Assembly: GCA_902619835.1 (NCBI GenBank)
Contig: CACNFS010000008.1
Location: 1-41,045, forward strand
DNA: 41,045 bases
Source: an uncultured Pelagibacteraceae bacterium
GTDB taxonomy: Bacteria > Pseudomonadota > Alphaproteobacteria > Pelagibacterales > Pelagibacteraceae
Direction of reading: 5' to 3'
The notes under the pieces are model-generated. The model was given only the letters and a program-made list of their open reading frames with translations. It did no database searches and was not told where the DNA came from. Positions within the stretch are counted from its first letter, which is position 1; every line of letters begins with the position of its first letter. Made by a program: the position numbers and the translations under genes. Shown here one piece after another: positions 917 through 9,220 of the stretch.

Positions 917-2323
917 ATGAGTTCAAAAAATATTCTTAAGCTTATGAAAGATAAGCAAGTAGAGTTTGTAGACCTAAGGTTTACAGATCCCAAGGGGAAA
1001 CTTCAACACTTAACAATGGACGCAACTGTTGTAGACGAAGATATGCTTGATAAGGGAGTATTTTTTGATGGTTCTTCAATTGCAGGATGGAAAGCAATAA
1101 ACGAATCTGACATGATTTTAAAACCAGATTTAGAAAAACCAATAATTGATCCGTTTAACTCGCATACCACACTTAATATTTTCTGCGATATTTTAGATGC
1201 TGTAAAAAAAGATCCATATGAAAGAGATCCGAGGGGAACTGCTAAAAAAGCTGAAGCCTATCTGAAAAAAACTGGAATAGGAGATAAATCTTATTTTGGC
1301 CCAGAGCCTGAATTTTTCGTATTCGATGATGTAAGGTTTAAAAATGATATGAATGAAACAAGTTTTAATATTGATAGTTCTGAGGGCCCTTATAATACTG
1401 GGAAAAAATATGAGAATGGAAATTTAGGTCATAGACCAGGTATAAAAGGAGGATATTTTCCTGTTCCTCCAGTCGATAGTGCCCAAGATATGAGGGGAGA
1501 GTATTTAAAAGCACTAAAAGATATGGGTGTTAAAGTAGAAAAACACCATCACGAAGTAGCTCCGAGTCAACATGAATTAGGTATGTATTTTGGAACTTTA
1601 ACAAATCAAGCTGATAACGTTCAATTATATAAATATGCTGTGCAAATGGTTACTAACTCTTTTGGGAAAACAGCAACATTTATGCCAAAACCTGTAAAGG
1701 GTGATAATGGCTCAGGTATGCATTGTCATCAATCTATTTGGAAAGGAAACACTCCACTTTTTATGGGTAAAGAATATGCCGGATTATCAAAGGAAGCACT
1801 TTACTACATTGGTGGAATTCTTAAACACGCTAGAGCGATAAACGCTTTCGCAAATGCAACGACAAACAGCTATAAAAGATTAATACCTGGCTTTGAGGCT
1901 CCAGTAATTTTAGCTTACTCTGCTAGAAATAGATCCGCATCATGTAGAATACCTGTGATAATGAATCCAAAGGCTGCAAGAATGGAGATAAGATTTCCGG
2001 ACGCCGCGGGTAATCCATATTTAACATTTGCTTCTATGCTTATGGCTGGGATTGATGGTATCAAAAATAAAATAGACCCGGGTAAACCTTTTGATCAAGA
2101 TCTTTACTCTTTATCTGAGGAGGAGGTAAAAAAATTACCGACAGTTTGTGGATCTTTAAGAGAAGCTATGCAAAACCTTGATAAAGATAGAAAATTCTTA
2201 ACTGAGGGTGGAGTATTTACTGATGATCAAATAGATGCCTATATTGAGCTTAAATTTCAAGAAATTTATAATTTTGAGCATACACCTCATCCCATTGAAT
2301 TTGAGATGTACTATAGTGGCTAA
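917..2323 (+). CDS. glnA: Glutamine synthetase, type I
   Basis: This enzyme makes glutamine from glutamate, ammonia and ATP and is the main entry point of ammonium into cytosolic metabolism. At 468 residues it matches bacterial GSI. The beta-grasp signature DGSSIAGW lies at 51-58, the ATP-binding KGDNGSGMHCH at 261-271, and a PGFEAPVILAYSARNRSAS segment contributes glutamate-site residues. The DLYSL segment places a tyrosine at residue 397, the adenylylation position of GSI-beta enzymes, so control by covalent modification is possible. The ATG at 917 follows GGAG (908-911) at 5-nt spacing, an unusually clear Shine-Dalgarno for this window. The stop TAA overlaps the sufA stop on the other strand. 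The alphaproteobacterial neighbour glnB is not adjacent. Confidence 0.97.
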   Translation: MSSKNILKLMKDKQVEFVDLRFTDPKGKLQHLTMDATVVDEDMLDKGVFFDGSSIAGWKAINESDMILKPDLEKPIIDPFNSHTTLNIFCDILDAVKKDPYERDPRGTAKKAEAYLKKTGIGDKSYFGPEPEFFVFDDVRFKNDMNETSFNIDSSEGPYNTGKKYENGNLGHRPGIKGGYFPVPPVDSAQDMRGEYLKALKDMGVKVEKHHHEVAPSQHELGMYFGTLTNQADNVQLYKYAVQMVTNSFGKTATFMPKPVKGDNGSGMHCHQSIWKGNTPLFMGKEYAGLSKEALYYIGGILKHARAINAFANATTNSYKRLIPGFEAPVILAYSARNRSASCRIPVIMNPKAARMEIRFPDAAGNPYLTFASMLMAGIDGIKNKIDPGKPFDQDLYSLSEEEVKKLPTVCGSLREAMQNLDKDRKFLTEGGVFTDDQIDAYIELKFQEIYNFEHTPHPIEFEMYYSG

Positions 2324-2655
2324 ACTTTAAAGGACTCTCCACAACCGCATCGCTCAGTTTCATTCGGATTTTTAAAGATGAACTGAGAGGAAAATTTTTC
2401 TTGCTTATAATCCATTTCAGTTCCTAGTAAGTAAATGATTGCTTTAGGGTCAATAAATACCTTTACACCTTTTTCTTCGATAACTTCTTCATTTGGTTTA
2501 ATTTCTCTCGCGTATTCCATAATATATGACATTCCCGCACAACCTCCAGATTTTATTCCCACTCTTACACCTATAGCGGAGCTCTCAGCTTTAGACATGA
2601 TCTGTTTTATTCTATTTGCCGCATTATCACTTAATCTAATTATTTGCTCACTCAT
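2320..2655 (-). CDS. sufA: A-type Fe-S carrier protein SufA/IscA/ErpA
   Basis: A 111-residue HesB/IscA-fold protein that receives Fe-S clusters from the SufBCD scaffold and passes them to apo-proteins. The three cluster-ligand cysteines are present: one in GGCAGMSY and two in the C-terminal ERCGCGESF. Length is normal for the family. It is the last gene of the suf operon; its ATG overlaps the sufT stop as ATGA, consistent with translational coupling. SufA, IscA and ErpA cannot be told apart from sequence alone, and the name follows the operon. Its stop overlaps the glnA stop by 4 nt, with no room for a terminator. Confidence 0.93.
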   Translation of the reverse strand: MSEQIIRLSDNAANRIKQIMSKAESSAIGVRVGIKSGGCAGMSYIMEYAREIKPNEEVIEEKGVKVFIDPKAIIYLLGTEMDYKQEKFSSQFIFKNPNETERCGCGESFKV

Positions 2656-2954
2656 AAATTTAACTCTAATTTAGCTGCTTCTGACATTTTATCTTTAGTC
2701 CAAGGTGGATCCCAAACTAGTTTTAAATCGACATCCCCAACCCCTTCAATTTTTAATATATTCTCTTTTACTGAATTAGGCAAACTTTCAGCTACTGGGC
2801 AATTTGGTGAGGTTAAAGTCATTTCTATTATCACTTTATTATCATTAACTATCTCAATCTTATAAATGAGACCTAATTCAAAAATATTAACTGGGATTTC
2901 TGGATCATAGATTTTTTTAATTTCAGATATTATTTTTTCTTTTAAGCTAGTCAT
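2652..2954 (-). CDS. sufT: SufT-type Fe-S assembly factor (DUF59/MIP18 family)
   Basis: A 100-residue DUF59 protein. The family hallmarks are the DPEIPVNIFELGLIY segment near the N-terminus and the conserved cysteine in TSPNCPVAESLP; the C-terminal LVWDPPWTKDKMSE segment matches PaaD/SufT proteins. Members help mature Fe-S proteins, acting after cluster assembly or as a target-specific carrier. It lies between sufU (4-nt gap) and sufA (ATGA overlap), a typical place in SUF operons that carry it. The family and operon role are well supported; the precise biochemical step is not known for most members. Confidence 0.9.
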   Translation of the reverse strand: MTSLKEKIISEIKKIYDPEIPVNIFELGLIYKIEIVNDNKVIIEMTLTSPNCPVAESLPNSVKENILKIEGVGDVDLKLVWDPPWTKDKMSEAAKLELNL

Positions 2955-2958
2955 AAAA

Positions 2959-3402
2959 TTAATTTTTATTTTCTAACGCTGATAAAAGTGTATGCCAAGC
3001 CATGGTTGCACATTTAATACGCATTGGAAACTCTTGAACACCAGATAATGAGGAAATTGTTGTTATTTGATCCTCGGATAAGCTATTTAAAGTGATTTTG
3101 GATTTATTTTTTAACATATTTAAAAAATCATCAGTAATTTTTTTCGAAAATTGTATATCTCTCCCTTTTAATGTATCAGTGAGAATTGAAGCTGATGCTA
3201 AAGATATTGCACACCCTTCACCTTCAAAACTTAAACCTGAAATATTTTTATCTTTATCTAATTTTAAATAAATATGAACTTTGTCTCCGCATAAAGGATT
3301 ATGTGCTTTTGCATCATGATTATATCCTTTGCACTTACCCTTATTTCTAGGATTTTTTGCGTGATCCAAAATAATTTCCTGGTATAGTTCTTTTAATTCC
3401 AT
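2959..3402 (-). CDS. sufU: SufU-type NifU-like sulfur transfer protein
   Basis: A 147-residue NifU/IscU N-terminal-domain protein. It has the three conserved cysteines, in NPLCGDKV, EGEGCAISLASAS and RIKCATMAWHTL, and the extra spacer between the second and third cysteine (about 20 residues) that separates SufU from IscU. SufU proteins carry zinc and accept persulfide sulfur from SufS, doing the job of SufE. The ATG directly follows the sufS TAG stop with no gap. No sufE is present in this operon, so SufU is the likely sulfurtransferase partner of SufS here. A scaffold role like IscU is the alternative. Confidence 0.9.
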   Translation of the reverse strand: MELKELYQEIILDHAKNPRNKGKCKGYNHDAKAHNPLCGDKVHIYLKLDKDKNISGLSFEGEGCAISLASASILTDTLKGRDIQFSKKITDDFLNMLKNKSKITLNSLSEDQITTISSLSGVQEFPMRIKCATMAWHTLLSALENKN

Positions 3403-4620
3403 CTAAATTTGAAAAACTTTTTTACATTTTTTTATTGACTCACTTAAAATATCAATATCTTCTTTACTATTATAAACTCCAAGCGAAGCTCTTGCTGAAG
3501 CAGCGATCCCGAGTTTGTCGTGTAGGATTTGACAACAATGATGTCCCGCTCTTATAGCTACTCCGTCATCATCTAAAATTGTTGCTATATCATGTGGGTG
3601 AATTCCTTTCATTGTGAAGGATATTATTGACGCTCTATTTTTAGGATTACCGATAATATTGATAGAGTTGTCTTTCCTTAATTTTTCTAAACCATACTCA
3701 AGTATTTGACTTTCATGTTGCTCTATATTTTTAATTCCTAGTTTTTGGATAAATTTTATAGCTTTAGCAAATGCTACGACCTCCGCGGTTTGCATTGTTC
3801 CTGCCTCAAATTTTGTAGGCGACTCTGCGTAAGTTATCTTATTTTTTCTTACATCACTTATCATTCCGCCCCCTCCTTGATATGGTGGCAATTCATCAAT
3901 CCATTTTTTTTTAGCAAAGAGAATACCAAGTCCGTTTGGACCGTACATTTTATGACAAGAAATTGCATAAAAATCACAATCTAAGTCTTGTACATCTATA
4001 ACTAAATGAGGAGCGCCTTGTGTACCATCAATTAATACTGGAATATTTTTTGATTTGGCTAAATCAATAATTTTTTTAATTGGCATTATAGTACCCGTTA
4101 CATTTGAAATATGTGTAAAAGCAATCATCTTGGTTTTTTCAGTAATTAGTTTTTTAAATTCATCAATGTTAATTTCTCCGTTTTCATTCATTGTCGCAAA
4201 TTTTATTACAGCTCCTTTTTTTTCCCTTAAATAATGCCATGGTACATAATTTGAATGGTGCTCTAATTCAGTAATGAGAATTTCATCGCCTCCTTTTATA
4301 AATTTTTCTCCATACGTACTTGCCACTAAATTTATTGCTTCAGTTGCTCCTTTTGTAAAAATTATTTCTTCTCTATGCTTAGCATTAACATAAGATTTAA
4401 CTATATCTCTTGTTTCTTCAAATTTATTTGTAGCTTTAACAGCTAGCGTATGAACACTTCTTCCAACATTTGAAAATTCAGTTTCATAAAACCTGGAAAT
4501 CTCATCGATTACTTCTTTCGGTTTTTGTGAAGAATTAGCGCTATCCAAGTATGTTAATGATTTGCCTTTAATTTTTTGTTTAAATATTGGAAATTTAGAT
4601 TTTATATCATTAAATTGCAT
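3403..4620 (-). CDS. sufS: Cysteine desulfurase SufS (class II, PLP enzyme)
   Basis: A fold-type I aminotransferase-like enzyme that releases sulfur from L-cysteine as an enzyme persulfide. The PLP lysine lies in ISCHKMYGPNGLG, the phosphate/substrate region in TELEHHSNYVPW, and the catalytic cysteine in RAGHHCCQILHDKLG near the C-terminus. The short loop around that cysteine is typical of class II (SufS/CsdA) enzymes. The start chosen is the ATG at 4620, preceded by GGGGAG about 7 nt upstream; a TTG one codon earlier is open but unnecessary. The gene overlaps the end of sufD by 11 nt. A second cysteine directly follows the catalytic one, where many homologues have Ala. Confidence 0.95.
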   Translation of the reverse strand: MQFNDIKSKFPIFKQKIKGKSLTYLDSANSSQKPKEVIDEISRFYETEFSNVGRSVHTLAVKATNKFEETRDIVKSYVNAKHREEIIFTKGATEAINLVASTYGEKFIKGGDEILITELEHHSNYVPWHYLREKKGAVIKFATMNENGEINIDEFKKLITEKTKMIAFTHISNVTGTIMPIKKIIDLAKSKNIPVLIDGTQGAPHLVIDVQDLDCDFYAISCHKMYGPNGLGILFAKKKWIDELPPYQGGGGMISDVRKNKITYAESPTKFEAGTMQTAEVVAFAKAIKFIQKLGIKNIEQHESQILEYGLEKLRKDNSINIIGNPKNRASIISFTMKGIHPHDIATILDDDGVAIRAGHHCCQILHDKLGIAASARASLGVYNSKEDIDILSESIKKCKKVFQI

Positions 4621-5851
4621 CAATTTGCTCCCCTATCCTAGACTCAAGAAAAGACTTTATTTTTTCTTCAGATATATTTTCAAGAATCTCATTGAGAAAA
4701 CCATTTATAAGAAGTTTTCTTGCAGCTTTTTTTTTGATCCCCCTTGTCATCAAGTAATGAATAGCCTCATCATCAATGCTCCCTGAAGTAGAACCATGTG
4801 AACATTTCACGTCATCAGCATAAATTTCTAGCTCTGGTTTAGCGCTAAATTCAGCTTGGTTTTCTAGAATTAAGGCTTTACTCAACTGATATGCATCTGT
4901 TTTTTGTGCAATATCTTTAACAAATATTTTGCCTTGATAAATTCCATTGCTATTTTCTTGTAAAACATTTTTAATTTTTTGATAACTTTTACAATTAGGA
5001 GCCAAATGATTTATTCGAGTTTTAATTTCTTGATGCTCATCTTTACCTAAACTTAGTCCTGATAAAATAAAGCAATTACTTTTCTCTTCATTCAAATTCA
5101 TATCTAAATCTACTTTGTTAAATTTTAGCCCAGAGGTTAAAATAAAATTTTGATAGCTTGAATTATATCCCTGTGATCCAAATATACTTTTATAAAAATA
5201 ACCATTACTTTTTGTTTTTTGGATTACAATATTTTTCAAAACTGAATTGTCTTTGATTTCTAAATTTTCAAAGGTGTTTTTGATATATTTACTTTTATGA
5301 TCAACATTATATTCTATTAAAATTAATTCTGAATTTTGATTCAATTTAATCTTATTCGAATTATTGATAATCTTATTATCTAAATTTGAAGTAAAATAAT
5401 TATAAATTACTATTGGTTTTTTACATTTGTAATCTTCCTGTATCTCTAAATCGAGCCCACCTAAAGTTAAAGCTTTGTTTAAATTTGAAAGGTTGTTTTT
5501 TGAATAATTTCTTAGATTATCCTCTGACTTTAAACTTTGAACTTTAACTTTTTCGTCTTCCTCAAATTTTATATCACTAGATTTGTATACTCCATTTACT
5601 AGTAAAATATAATTGTGCTCAAACTCATTGATTATATCAATTTTTTTATCAAAATTGAAATCATAGTTATTTTTAACACTTTTAAAATTTTTTTTTATAA
5701 TTGAATTTAAATCTGTAAATTTCCAATCCTCATTTTTTTTGTTTGGAAGACCAGTCTCAAAAAACAATTGCAAATTTTTTTTTCGATCTTTTTTTTCTTG
5801 CTCAGAAGCAACAGATATCTTTTCTAAATCAATAGCAAATAATTGTTCCAT
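4610..5851 (-). CDS. sufD: Fe-S scaffold subunit SufD
   Basis: A 413-residue SufB/SufD-family protein that forms the SufBC2D scaffold with SufB and the ATPase SufC. The N-terminal part (to about residue 150) is lysine/asparagine-rich and poorly conserved, with GLPNKKNEDWKFTDL matching the usual SufD N-terminal helix. The C-terminal half has the family beta-helix and the signature DDVKCSHGSTSGSIDDEAIHY with its conserved Cys and His. The downstream GIKKKAARKLLINGFLNE helix is also typical. ATG 5851 overlaps the sufC stop as TAATG. SufD lacks the catalytic residues of SufB and mainly supports iron entry and complex assembly. Confidence 0.94.
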   Translation of the reverse strand: MEQLFAIDLEKISVASEQEKKDRKKNLQLFFETGLPNKKNEDWKFTDLNSIIKKNFKSVKNNYDFNFDKKIDIINEFEHNYILLVNGVYKSSDIKFEEDEKVKVQSLKSEDNLRNYSKNNLSNLNKALTLGGLDLEIQEDYKCKKPIVIYNYFTSNLDNKIINNSNKIKLNQNSELILIEYNVDHKSKYIKNTFENLEIKDNSVLKNIVIQKTKSNGYFYKSIFGSQGYNSSYQNFILTSGLKFNKVDLDMNLNEEKSNCFILSGLSLGKDEHQEIKTRINHLAPNCKSYQKIKNVLQENSNGIYQGKIFVKDIAQKTDAYQLSKALILENQAEFSAKPELEIYADDVKCSHGSTSGSIDDEAIHYLMTRGIKKKAARKLLINGFLNEILENISEEKIKSFLESRIGEQIDAI

Positions 5852-6585
5852 TATCTTAAATTTATATACCCTGTTTTTTCCAATTCTTGACCTAAATCAG
5901 CACATCCAGTTTTAACAATTTTACCATTAGATAAGACGTGGATAAAATCAGGTTTAATATAATCAAGCAAACGCTGATAATGCGTGATTATTAAAAATGC
6001 ATTGTTTTTATTTTTATGAGAATTAACGCCATCTGCAACAATCCTAAGCGCATCTATATCTAATCCAGAGTCAGTTTCATCTAAAATAGCCAACTTTGGT
6101 TCCAGAAGTTTCATTTGAAGTATTTCGTTTTTCTTTTTCTCTCCACCAGAAAAACCAACGTTTAATTGTCTAGATAAAAACTTTTCATCAATTTTTAACT
6201 CTGAAGCTTTCTCCTTGATTAATTTTAAAAGAGAAATGGTGTCTAATTCCTTTTCACCTTTGGCTTTTCTAATAGTGTTCAATGAAGTTTTCAAAAAGTT
6301 AGTGGTGTTTACACCTGGAATTTCCAACGGATATTGAAAAGCTAAAAATATTCCTTTTTGTGCTCTTTCTTCAATTGGAATATCTTGTAAATTTTTTCCT
6401 TCATACTTTAAACTCCCGCTAATATTATAACCACTCTTTCCAGAAAGTATGTTAGCCAAAGTGCTTTTTCCTGATCCATTAGGGCCCATAATTGCATGCA
6501 CCTCGCCTGGTTTAATTTCTAAATTTAAACCATTTAAGATTGATTTATTATCAACAGAAGCTTTTAAATTTTGCAAATTGAGCAT
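5851..6585 (-). CDS. sufC: Fe-S assembly ABC ATPase SufC
   Basis: A 244-residue cytosolic ABC-type ATPase. Visible motifs are Walker A GPNGSGKST (around 35-43), a Q-loop in AFQYPLEIPGV, the signature LNVGFSGGEKKKNEILQ, Walker B LAILDETDSGLD and the H-loop histidine in LIITHYQRLL. The FSGGEKKRNE-type signature and the ETDSGLD Walker B region are diagnostic of SufC rather than of transporters, and there is no membrane subunit nearby. It drives conformational change in the SufBCD scaffold. Its ATG overlaps the sufB stop as TAATG, and its own stop overlaps sufD in the same way, so B, C and D are likely translationally coupled. Confidence 0.97.
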   Translation of the reverse strand: MLNLQNLKASVDNKSILNGLNLEIKPGEVHAIMGPNGSGKSTLANILSGKSGYNISGSLKYEGKNLQDIPIEERAQKGIFLAFQYPLEIPGVNTTNFLKTSLNTIRKAKGEKELDTISLLKLIKEKASELKIDEKFLSRQLNVGFSGGEKKKNEILQMKLLEPKLAILDETDSGLDIDALRIVADGVNSHKNKNNAFLIITHYQRLLDYIKPDFIHVLSNGKIVKTGCADLGQELEKTGYINLR

Positions 6586-8018
6586 TATCCAACGCTCCCC
6601 TCAAGACTGATAGAAACTAACTTTTGAGCCTCAACTGCAAACTCCATTGGTAGTTGTTGAAGTACCTCTTTGCAAAAACCATTAACTATAAGACTAACAG
6701 CTTCCTCTTGGTTAAGTCCTCTCTGATTACAATAAAATAATTGGTCTTCATTAATCTTTGATGTCGTTGCCTCATGCTCAACTGTAGAGGACGAGTTTTT
6801 GCTTCTAATGTAAGGCACTGTATGAGCACCACATTTATTACCCATTAGTAATGAATCGCATTGCGTATAATTTCTAGAATTTAATGCTTTGGGTCCTATG
6901 TCCACAAGTCCCCTGTAAGTATTATCAGCTTTGCCCGCTGAAATTCCTTTTGATATAATTTTACTCTTTGTGTTTTTACCTAAGTGAATCATTTTTGTAC
7001 CTGTATCTGCTTTTTGATGGTTATTTGTAATAGCTATAGAGTAGAATTCACCTACTGAATTTTCACCTTGCAATATACAACTTGGATATTTCCATGTAAT
7101 AGCCGATCCTGTCTCGACTTGTGTCCATGAAATTTTGGAATTCTTACCTCTGCATGCTCCTCTTTTAGTTACAAAATTATAAATTCCTCCTACACCATCT
7201 TTATCTCCAGGATACCAATTTTGTACAGTTGAATATTTTATTTCCGCATCGTCCAGTGCAACTAATTCTACATTTGCTGCATGTAATTGATTTTCGTCTC
7301 TCATAGGAGCTGTGCAGCCCTCAAGATAACTTACATAGCTACCTTTATCTGCAATTATGAGAGTTCTCTCAAATTGGCCTGTTTCAGAAGCGTTAATTCT
7401 AAAATACGTTGAAAGCTCCATAGGGCATCTTGTGTTTGGCGGAATATAAACAAAAGAACCGTCGGTAAATACCGCAGAATTTAGTGTAGCAAAATAATGA
7501 TCACTAATTGGAATTACAGATCCAAGGTATCTTTTAACTAAATCAGGGTGTTTAATAATTGCTTCGGATATTGGACAAAAAATTATACCTTTTTTATCCA
7601 GCTCACCTTTAAAAGTTGTTGCAACAGAAACCGAGTCAAAAACTGCATCTACTGCAACTCCACTTAACCTTTTTTGTTCATTCAGCGGGATTCCTAATTT
7701 ATTATAAGTTTCAATAAGTTTTGGGTCAACTTCATCTAAGCTGTTTGGTTTATCTTTCATACTTTTTGGTGCTGAGTAGTAATAAAGGTCTTGATAATCA
7801 ATTCTTGGATACTTAGGTTTTTGCCAATTAGGCTCTTTTAATACTTTTAACCTGTTAAAAGCTTTTAATCTCCAGTCTAGCATCCACTGAGGTTCTTTTT
7901 TAATTTTAGAAATAAATCTAATCGTGTCTTCAGAAAGCCCTTTAGGAGCTTTGATATTTTCTATATCGGTTGTAAAACCATATTTATATTCCTGATTTTT
8001 TAATTCTTCACTTTTCAT
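6585..8018 (-). CDS. sufB: Fe-S scaffold subunit SufB
   Basis: A 477-residue SufB, near the usual 470-500. Strongly conserved segments include [15 protein letters not shown]-like [16 protein letters not shown] at the N-terminus, [39 protein letters not shown] and, near the C-terminus, the cluster-building region with [13 protein letters not shown] and [13 protein letters not shown]. SufB accepts persulfide sulfur from SufS/SufU and is where the nascent cluster forms, together with SufC and SufD. It is the first structural gene after iscR, separated by 3 nt from the iscR stop. The assignment is very secure. Confidence 0.97.
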
Positions 8019-8021
8019 GTT

Positions 8022-8432
8022 TTAATTTATTTTTGTTAAATCTTGTAATTTCACTTTTTCAAAAAAACCATTTATATGTTGATCTAATTGATCCCATAAA
8101 TTATGCGTTATGCATTTCATTGATCTATTATTACAACCTCGTTTTGAATTTTTTTTACAATTAAGTGTCCTAACTTCCTCATCGACTGCATAAATAATAT
8201 TTGATAATTTGATTTCAGATGCCGGTTTTTCTAAAACATAACCTCCATTAGCACCCCTTGAACTTTTTACTAACTTATTATTTTTAAGTTTTAAAAAAAT
8301 TTGCTCTAGATAAGCTAAGGAAATGTTTTGTCTTAAAGAGATCTCTGTTAAACTTATAGGTCCGTCTTTAGCATTTGATGCCAAGTCAGCCATAGCCATA
8401 ACTGCATATCTACCTTTATTAGTTAGTTTCAT
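8022..8432 (-). CDS. iscR: Rrf2-family Fe-S regulator, IscR-like
   Basis: A 136-residue Rrf2 transcription factor. The N-terminal winged helix contains KGRYAVMAMADLA and NISLAYLEQIFLKLK, with the wing in SSRGANGGYVLEKP. C92, C100, C107 and H110 reproduce the Cys3His ligand set that holds a [2Fe-2S] cluster in IscR (spacing slightly longer than in E. coli). It heads the suf operon and presumably senses Fe-S status to control it. A palindrome matching the IscR type-1 pattern lies 37-53 bp upstream of its start, overlapping the likely -35. The leader would be only about 7 nt and shows no clear Shine-Dalgarno. Whether it is a true IscR orthologue or a SufR-like Rrf2 paralogue is not decided. Confidence 0.92.
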   Translation of the reverse strand: MKLTNKGRYAVMAMADLASNAKDGPISLTEISLRQNISLAYLEQIFLKLKNNKLVKSSRGANGGYVLEKPASEIKLSNIIYAVDEEVRTLNCKKNSKRGCNNRSMKCITHNLWDQLDQHINGFFEKVKLQDLTKIN

Positions 8433-8445
8433 AATTTTGTGTTGT

Positions 8446-8451
8446 ATTATA
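8446..8451 (-). promoter_or_regulatory. Putative -10 element of the suf operon promoter
   Basis: On the minus strand these six bases read TATAAT, a perfect -10 consensus, 14 nt before the iscR ATG. A 17-bp spacer places the -35 at 8469-8474, where no consensus hexamer is found; the IscR-like palindrome lies there instead. Transcription would start at about 8439. Confidence 0.6.
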
Positions 8452-8464
8452 ACAGTTTTGATAG

Positions 8465-8489
8465 AATTCCTACTATTTTAGTAGGGATT
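8465..8489. promoter_or_regulatory. IscR type-1-like operator over the suf promoter
   Basis: The core CCTACTA-TTT-TAGTAGG (8469-8485) is a perfect 7-bp inverted repeat with a 3-bp centre, extended imperfectly by AT pairs to 8465-8489. Its ACT-N4/5-AGT spacing and flanking C/G pairs resemble the known IscR type-1 site (pattern YGACT-N4-AGTCR). It covers the expected -35 of the suf promoter, which would suit autorepression by the IscR encoded immediately downstream. It also lies 75-99 bp upstream of the divergent hydrolase gene. Confidence 0.65.
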
Positions 8490-8563
8490 AAAAAAAAATA
8501 TTTGTCGCATAAAAACGTGATATAAATCTGTACTTTTTTTTTTAATAATAATCATTATCAAGT

Positions 8564-9220
8564 ATGAAACCAAAAAGTTTAGAAATTTTTATACCTGGGC
8601 CTGCCGGAAGACTTGAGGCTAAATATTATAAGAACCCAAAATTTGGCTCTCCTGTAGCAATAGTGCTTCATCCACATCCTCAATATGGAGGAACAATGAA
8701 CAATCGAATAGTTCAACTAATGTATAACATTTTTTTAGAAAACGGTTTTTCGGTTATAAAGGTAAATTTCAGAGGTGTTGGAAAAAGTGATGGTGTTTTT
8801 GATAATGGACAAGGTGAATTATCTGATGCAGCTGCCACACTAGATTGGATTGAAAGACAAAATCTAGATTACAGTCAGTGTTGGGTCTCCGGTTTTTCTT
8901 TTGGTTCATTAATTTGTATGCAACTAATTATGCGAAGACCAGAAGTAAATAACTTTATAGCAGTTTCCCCTCAACCGAACGTTTACGATTTTTCATTTCT
9001 TGCTCCATGTCCAACTTCTGGACAAGTAATCTATAGTGAAAACGATGAATTAGTTACTAAAGAGAGTATAGTAGAGTTAGATAATAGAATTAAAAACCAA
9101 AAAGGAGTAGAAGTTATTTTTTCTAAAATAAAAAATTCTAATCATTTTTTTAAGAATAAAGAAAAAGAGTTATCAGGAGAAATTGAAAAATATTTAAAAG
9201 AAAAAACAGCTTTGATTTAA
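8564..9220 (+). CDS. Alpha/beta hydrolase (serine hydrolase fold)
   Basis: A 218-residue cytosolic alpha/beta hydrolase. The oxyanion-side segment HPHPQYGGTMNN, the strand-turn VNFRGVGKSDG and the nucleophile elbow GFSFGS are present, and a likely acid in YSENDELV and base in NSNHFF complete the Ser-Asp-His triad. The N-terminal IFIPGPAGRLEAKYY and HPHP motif are typical of the small alpha/beta hydrolases widely annotated in alphaproteobacteria. The substrate is unknown; esterase or thioesterase activity is possible. It is transcribed divergently from the suf operon and shares the 131-bp gap with it. Its stop overlaps the anmK stop by 4 nt (TTAA). Confidence 0.85.
   Translation: MKPKSLEIFIPGPAGRLEAKYYKNPKFGSPVAIVLHPHPQYGGTMNNRIVQLMYNIFLENGFSVIKVNFRGVGKSDGVFDNGQGELSDAAATLDWIERQNLDYSQCWVSGFSFGSLICMQLIMRRPEVNNFIAVSPQPNVYDFSFLAPCPTSGQVIYSENDELVTKESIVELDNRIKNQKGVEVIFSKIKNSNHFFKNKEKELSGEIEKYLKEKTALI

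Follow-up and report, generated by a model that had tools for sequence, protein, structure and literature searches.

A conserved box upstream of iscR-suf in a SAR11 genome, probably a type-1 IscR operator

Described IscR systems and the SAR11 locus

In Escherichia coli, IscR sites lie at the promoter of iscR, the gene that heads a cluster-assembly operon, and here we describe a probable counterpart in the window, the whole 41,045-nucleotide stretch of DNA analysed (CACNFS010000008.1), which is a contig of a SAR11 (Pelagibacteraceae) genome and whose IscR is at most 96% identical to named Pelagibacteraceae records. The 131-base intergenic stretch between iscR and a divergent hydrolase gene contains a 17-mer, CCTACTATTTTAGTAGG at 8469–8485, read CCTACTAAAATAGTAGG on the operon (minus) strand and located 36 nt before the iscR start. 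A sequence-only reading of this DNA had interpreted the 17-mer as an IscR box. After comparison with relatives, we put at roughly 0.85 the probability that it is a type-1 IscR operator at iscR's own promoter, through which suf would be autorepressed in an iron-sulfur (Fe-S)-dependent manner. As far as our literature search reaches, such an operator is new for the SAR11 lineage (no report of this site was found in the literature on IscR, Rrf2 or the suf operon in Pelagibacter/SAR11), and the circuit is of a known, ordinary kind. The elements at the centre of the analysis are as follows.

8469–8485, minus strand: type-1-like IscR box CCTACTAAAATAGTAGG; position and right arm kept in the genus, E. 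coli-type core in sister genera
8446–8451, minus strand: putative -10 element TATAAT with TG one base ahead; the genus form is TRTAW(T/A), not TATAAT
8022–8432, minus strand: iscR, Rrf2-family regulator with Cys3His; first gene of the SUF run

The likeness to the E. coli iscR promoter lies in the placement of the site and in the core YYGACTRWWWYAGTCRR, which is found in sister SAR11 genera. The window operon differs in being SUF rather than ISC, and one IscR site is seen in the window, whereas the E. coli promoter has three according to the accessible part of PMC3899308. The window arms read CCTACT...AGTAGG, and most of the outer ATAS/STAT letters that mark the E. coli type-1 site are absent. 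From the same part of that article we took the 25-letter E. coli type-1 consensus ATASYYGACTRWWWYAGTCRRSTAT, and it gives 68% and 76% agreement with the consensus for sites A and B of the repressed Pseudomonas aeruginosa iscR promoter; the window box reaches 72% (18/25). The P. aeruginosa promoter differs from that of the window in having two sites and in serving an ISC operon (PMC3899308).

The isc-suf locus of Caulobacter crescentus is likewise a single alphaproteobacterial operon headed by iscR and encodes a Cys3His IscR; its expression rises in low iron and its promoter is up threefold in an iscR mutant (PMC11475020, available excerpt). However, the motifs reported in that excerpt look different, iscS follows iscR, suf mRNA is unchanged in the iscR mutant and the regulon is estimated at 302 genes. 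In Rhodobacter sphaeroides, IscR represses iron-metabolism genes via a palindrome near the promoter, the Iron-Rhodo-box, but that IscR has a single Cys, the box is 19 bp long and its targets are many (PMC4618611, available excerpt).

The box among relatives with and without IscR

The case for the box rests on relatives and not on the window sequence alone. Allowing up to three mismatches, chance would give 0.13 occurrences of the exact word in the window; there are three, of which two are the two strands of the box. Perfect 7-3-7 palindromes number 10, against a mean of 10.25 in Markov sequences, and two of the ten have at least three G/C per arm. Because this count matches the Markov expectation, symmetry alone is no evidence, and we dropped it as an argument for the box. 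The perfect symmetry stressed in the sequence-only reading did not hold up among relatives either, being present in 5 of 163 family regions. Such chance-level symmetry would suit a chance palindrome, and the conservation of much of the intergenic stretch within the window's genus would suit a promoter element kept without any regulator. A type-2 IscR site was rejected, as the best agreement with the E. coli type-2 consensus in the intergenic region, 17/26, equals the Markov median.

We read 163 Pelagibacteraceae iscR upstream regions, the window included, of which 152 are distinct (the named set comes partly from the same genomes as the unnamed one); locus L108, whose start is missing, was left out. 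The order search gave no match in 18 of 118 genomes, including three of genus g4 and ten of the sister family. Conservation upstream of iscR-suf, which the sequence-only reading had named beforehand as the test that could refute it, is present: the box scores at least 14/17 in 162 of the 163 regions and at least 15/17 in 154 (151 and 143 of the distinct regions, respectively). Among 3,280 mononucleotide shuffles, 23% reach 14/17 and 3.1% reach 15/17, figures that apply to a 17-letter pattern widened after the window's genus had been seen. The best match lies 24–70 nt before iscR in the 163 regions.

In other genera the prevailing form of the box is TTGACTAWWTTA(G/C)T(C/A)(G/A)G, and the box agrees with the E. 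coli type-1 consensus at 17–24 of 25 positions, with 22–24 in g4 and medians of 19–20 in g2, g3, g5 and g6. In the window's genus the box has drifted to C(C/T/A)(G/T)A(C/G)T...GTAGG, with the right-arm GTAGG nearly invariant and the left arm variable (column counts from 74 of the 88 distinct genus regions). With a matrix trained without this genus, 58 of its 96 loci (named records included) score above the 99th percentile of Markov sequences, a threshold of 8.9; the window scores 10.7.

The box extends beyond the family. In the sister family of the order it lies 758–766 nt before iscR in all five long stretches read (five fetched, from 31 genomes with a match). It was seen in none of 20 loci within 200 nt upstream, and within 300 nt only L300 was flagged, for a weak match at 19 nt. 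In the one sister-family stretch with listed reading frames, a cysE gene (L304, 396–1076) stands between box and iscR, which in this genome would place cysteine supply under the same operator. Among other Alphaproteobacteria, the box lies within 300 nt of iscR in 10 of 29 loci, the 29 being the top scorers among 125 genomes that gave a match. A core common to several genera and to a second family with different surroundings argues against the chance palindrome.

The regulator itself fits the proposed role. The Rrf2 domain spans the whole window protein (PF02082, 126.9 bits, cut-off 30), the nearest structures in the Protein Data Bank (PDB) are of E. coli IscR, and the recognition helix reads ISLAYLEQIF against ISLSYLEQLF in E. 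coli, a sequence mostly kept. The Cys3His ligand set of the first gene, to which the sequence-only reading had drawn attention, was confirmed as C-x7-C-x6-C-x2-H; it occurs in 163 of 164 IscR sequences, the exception being a fragment. Its spacing is identical in 27 of 29 class loci and in all 20 sister-family loci. Glu at column 43 is found in 95 of 95 genus loci and 27 of 29 class loci, and in none of eight in g5, where the consensus is shifted by one residue.

Lineages that lack the sensor provide a further comparison. Of 118 family genomes, 33 have no IscR match; among the 20 listed ones that we examined, 13 have sufB. These 13 loci (L176–L188), from g7, g9 and g12, have sufB without iscR. 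An Rrf2 match was obtained in none of the 13 genomes, compared with four of four controls, and the box is below the 8.9 threshold in all 13 loci (matrix scores -3.0 to 7.7). Twelve of the 13 have the hydrolase gene, which adjoins sufB in all three loci with listed reading frames. In the SufB tree the 13 loci group together (support 100/97), next to g5 (support 99/93), in which both sensor and box are present. Because the sister family too has sensor and box, this pattern reads as one joint loss of IscR and box. The disappearance of the box together with IscR, though sufB and hydrolase remain adjacent, also tells against a chance palindrome or a regulator-free promoter element, which we regard as highly improbable. 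Together with the type-1 core in sister genera, it supports the earlier proposal of an IscR operator, and the clade that lacks both offers a natural way to gauge the value of this control.

Beyond iscR we found little sign of other targets. A strict pattern recovers the iscR site in 12 of 14 IscR-bearing genomes, the two misses being variant boxes. Its seven further matches in these genomes, and its four matches in three IscR-less genomes, all lie inside open reading frames. Outside reading frames the strict pattern has no site in the 14 genomes except at iscR, weaker sites not having been sought, and on the same terms we set aside a wider IscR regulon. In the window's own genome (925,185 bases, approximately 80% complete), the plain core ACTANNNTAGT occurs 9 times, compared with 42 times for its reversed form, and was rejected as uninformative. 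Here IscR may therefore act as a local regulator, with suf as its sole target.

Promoter layout and the sense of control

The promoter details are weaker than the case for the box. The 17-mer and the TATAAT are both present as the sequence-only reading had described, the latter at 8451–8446 on the minus strand. If TATAAT is the -10, transcription would start near 8440 and leave a leader of 7–8 nt; the earlier figure of about 7 nt therefore stands on that assumption, and the -10 is unproved. Of 95 genus loci, 7 have TATAAT and 32 have TGTATT, the commonest form, and the perfect TATAAT of the earlier account loses its weight as a promoter feature. What is conserved in the genus, over 74 regions, is a block, TRTAW(T/A)AC, located 17 nt downstream of the right arm. 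The palindrome had also been placed at the expected -35. This holds for its position, but a recognisable -35 hexamer is lacking: for this -10, the candidate closest to TTGACA agrees at 2/6 positions in 89 of the 95 genus loci and at 3/6 in the other six, and the promoter scan of the window did not list the suf promoter. The block TTRTAWTACAA was considered as a second regulator's site and rejected (40 forward matches against 42 for the control in nine genomes).

Sister genera have their best -35, TTGACT or TTGACC, at the left arm, with the -10 close behind the box. Counted over distinct regions, this left-arm -35 is found in 18 of 19 in g2, 18 of 18 in g4, 6 of 7 in g5, 4 of 5 in g6, g10 and g13 together, and only 9 of 16 in g3. 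A -35 once inside the box has decayed in the window's genus. In either layout the box is predicted to overlap the polymerase footprint, which makes repression by occlusion the plain reading.

The same layout offers an alternative in which the box is IscR's but the sign of control has changed. With the -35 decayed and the -10 some 20 bp further downstream, the centre of the box would fall near -38, a position suited to contact between an activator and polymerase. The operator would then have stayed while the promoter moved to a new start element, turning IscR from a repressor into a factor on which the promoter depends. This alternative draws on the contrast between the left-arm -35 of sister genera and the 2–3/6 hexamers of the window's genus, and on the near-invariance of the right-arm GTAGG beside a variable left arm. 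The genus -10 on which it depends is itself uncertain, however (TRTAWT, position 2 mostly G), and we consider activation unlikely.

Returning to repression, the box very probably serves as a switch that lets IscR, the sensor encoded in the operon itself, tune cluster supply to demand. Dimeric IscR with a [2Fe-2S] cluster would bind the type-1 box, which overlaps the promoter at its upstream end, and would thereby block RNA polymerase. A drop in cluster supply, through little iron or high demand, would leave IscR without its cluster; it would then come off the box, iscR-sufBCDS and the three genes behind would be expressed more, and supply would be restored. Binding, repression, cluster dependence and a single transcript of the eight genes are what we infer.

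In Candidatus Pelagibacter ubique, the genes SAR11_0738–0745 (annotated from 'sufA, transcriptional regulator' to hesB) were up 1.76–2.44-fold 24 h after iron chelation (PMC2864753, available excerpt), and such a rise is what derepression predicts. The autorepression suggested in the sequence-only reading thereby gains indirect support, its repressive step remaining our inference. The excerpted account of the iron response names no operator (PMC2864753). If our interpretation is true, it explains the approximately two-fold iron response of suf in this organism. The mechanism itself is textbook, and SAR11, very abundant marine bacteria, would gain a definite cis-element for iron-sulfur supply that is open to test.

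Several observations weigh against this interpretation. The 18/25 agreement of the window box with the E. coli type-1 consensus is reached by 5% of Markov sequences, and the genus median of 17/25 by 22%. Below the 99% line of the matrix fall 38 of the 96 genus loci, and in 19 of the 29 other alphaproteobacterial loci the 300 nt next to iscR show no box. Across the 14 IscR-bearing genomes the strict pattern is no commoner than its reversed control (19 places against 24), so that only its position is telling. The joint loss of IscR and box is a single event on the tree. The iron-limitation data give P = 0.062 for the regulator gene itself (PMC2864753, available excerpt). Lastly, TIGR02010, the IscR equivalog model, is the best match of the window protein but scores 172.6 bits, below its cut-off of 207.55. 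That cut-off belongs to one curated model and is not a structural feature; we name the protein IscR-type on its Rrf2 domain, predicted ligands and recognition helix.

The Fur-like element and the genes around the box

The remaining features of the locus are listed below.

8546–8560, strand not assigned: Fur-box-like 15-mer, 14/15 to TGATAATNATTATCA, between the hydrolase promoter and the hydrolase ATG
8564–9220, plus strand: alpha/beta hydrolase, divergent from iscR and not in itself a member of the circuit
6585–8018, minus strand: sufB (PRK11814 and TIGR01980 above cut-off)
5851–6585, minus strand: sufC, ABC ATPase, named from context
4610–5851, minus strand: sufD, SufBD core, named from context
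3403–4623, minus strand: sufS, cysteine desulfurase (TIGR01979 above cut-off)
2959–3402, minus strand: sufU-type sulfur transfer protein (TIGR01994 above cut-off)
2652–2954, minus strand: SUF-associated (PaaD-like) protein (TIGR02945 above cut-off)
2320–2655, minus strand: sufA/iscA-type carrier, last gene of the run (TIGR00049 above cut-off; best match sufA_proteo, below its own cut-off)

The Fur-box-like 15-mer lies 60 bp from the IscR box, between the conserved TATAAA of the hydrolase gene and its ATG. We scored it against TGATAATNATTATCA, the Fur 7-1-7 box. At 12/15 or better the element is present in 150 of 152 loci (g1, g2, g3, g4, g6, g10, g13 and the named set), compared with 3.7% of Markov sequences; at this level it was found in none of the 8 g5, 12 IscR-less and 5 sister-family loci. 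Four of 80 named loci and one of 13 IscR-less loci, which have no usable hydrolase start, were dropped from these counts. The 17-mer might accordingly be thought to serve another iron regulator, Fur or Irr, given this neighbour in the same intergenic region and three Fur-superfamily matches in the genome, or else to serve the divergent hydrolase gene. However, the Fur-like box differs from the 17-mer in sequence and place, and the IscR-less clade keeps the hydrolase but not the 17-mer; we find either assignment barely credible.

Across nine genomes, 36 Fur-box matches with one mismatch or none were counted, against 11 for a control pattern. Among ten loci with listed reading frames, five lie directly before a periplasmic iron-binding-protein gene, one before nuoA and four inside reading frames, so that chance matches occur. 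Before the iron-binding-protein gene the boxes are doubled in the window's own genome and in G018, as tandems of perfect and near-perfect copies (G000:C6:5182-5223, L332; G018:C1:1722-1763, L323), and single in G043, G040 and G017, the last with one mismatch; the protein was compared with the PDB for the own genome's copy only. No classic Fur box is reported in the available part of a study of another SAR11, Ca. P. ubique HTCC1062 (PMC3090418). In a further SAR11 genome, a perfect Fur box stands 74 nt before nuoA, the first of the complex I genes (L320 1501–1515; G003:C1:551969-551983). Within the intergenic stretch of the window, ATTTGTCGCATAAAAACG at 8500–8517, upstream of the hydrolase TATAAA, is strongly conserved in the genus.
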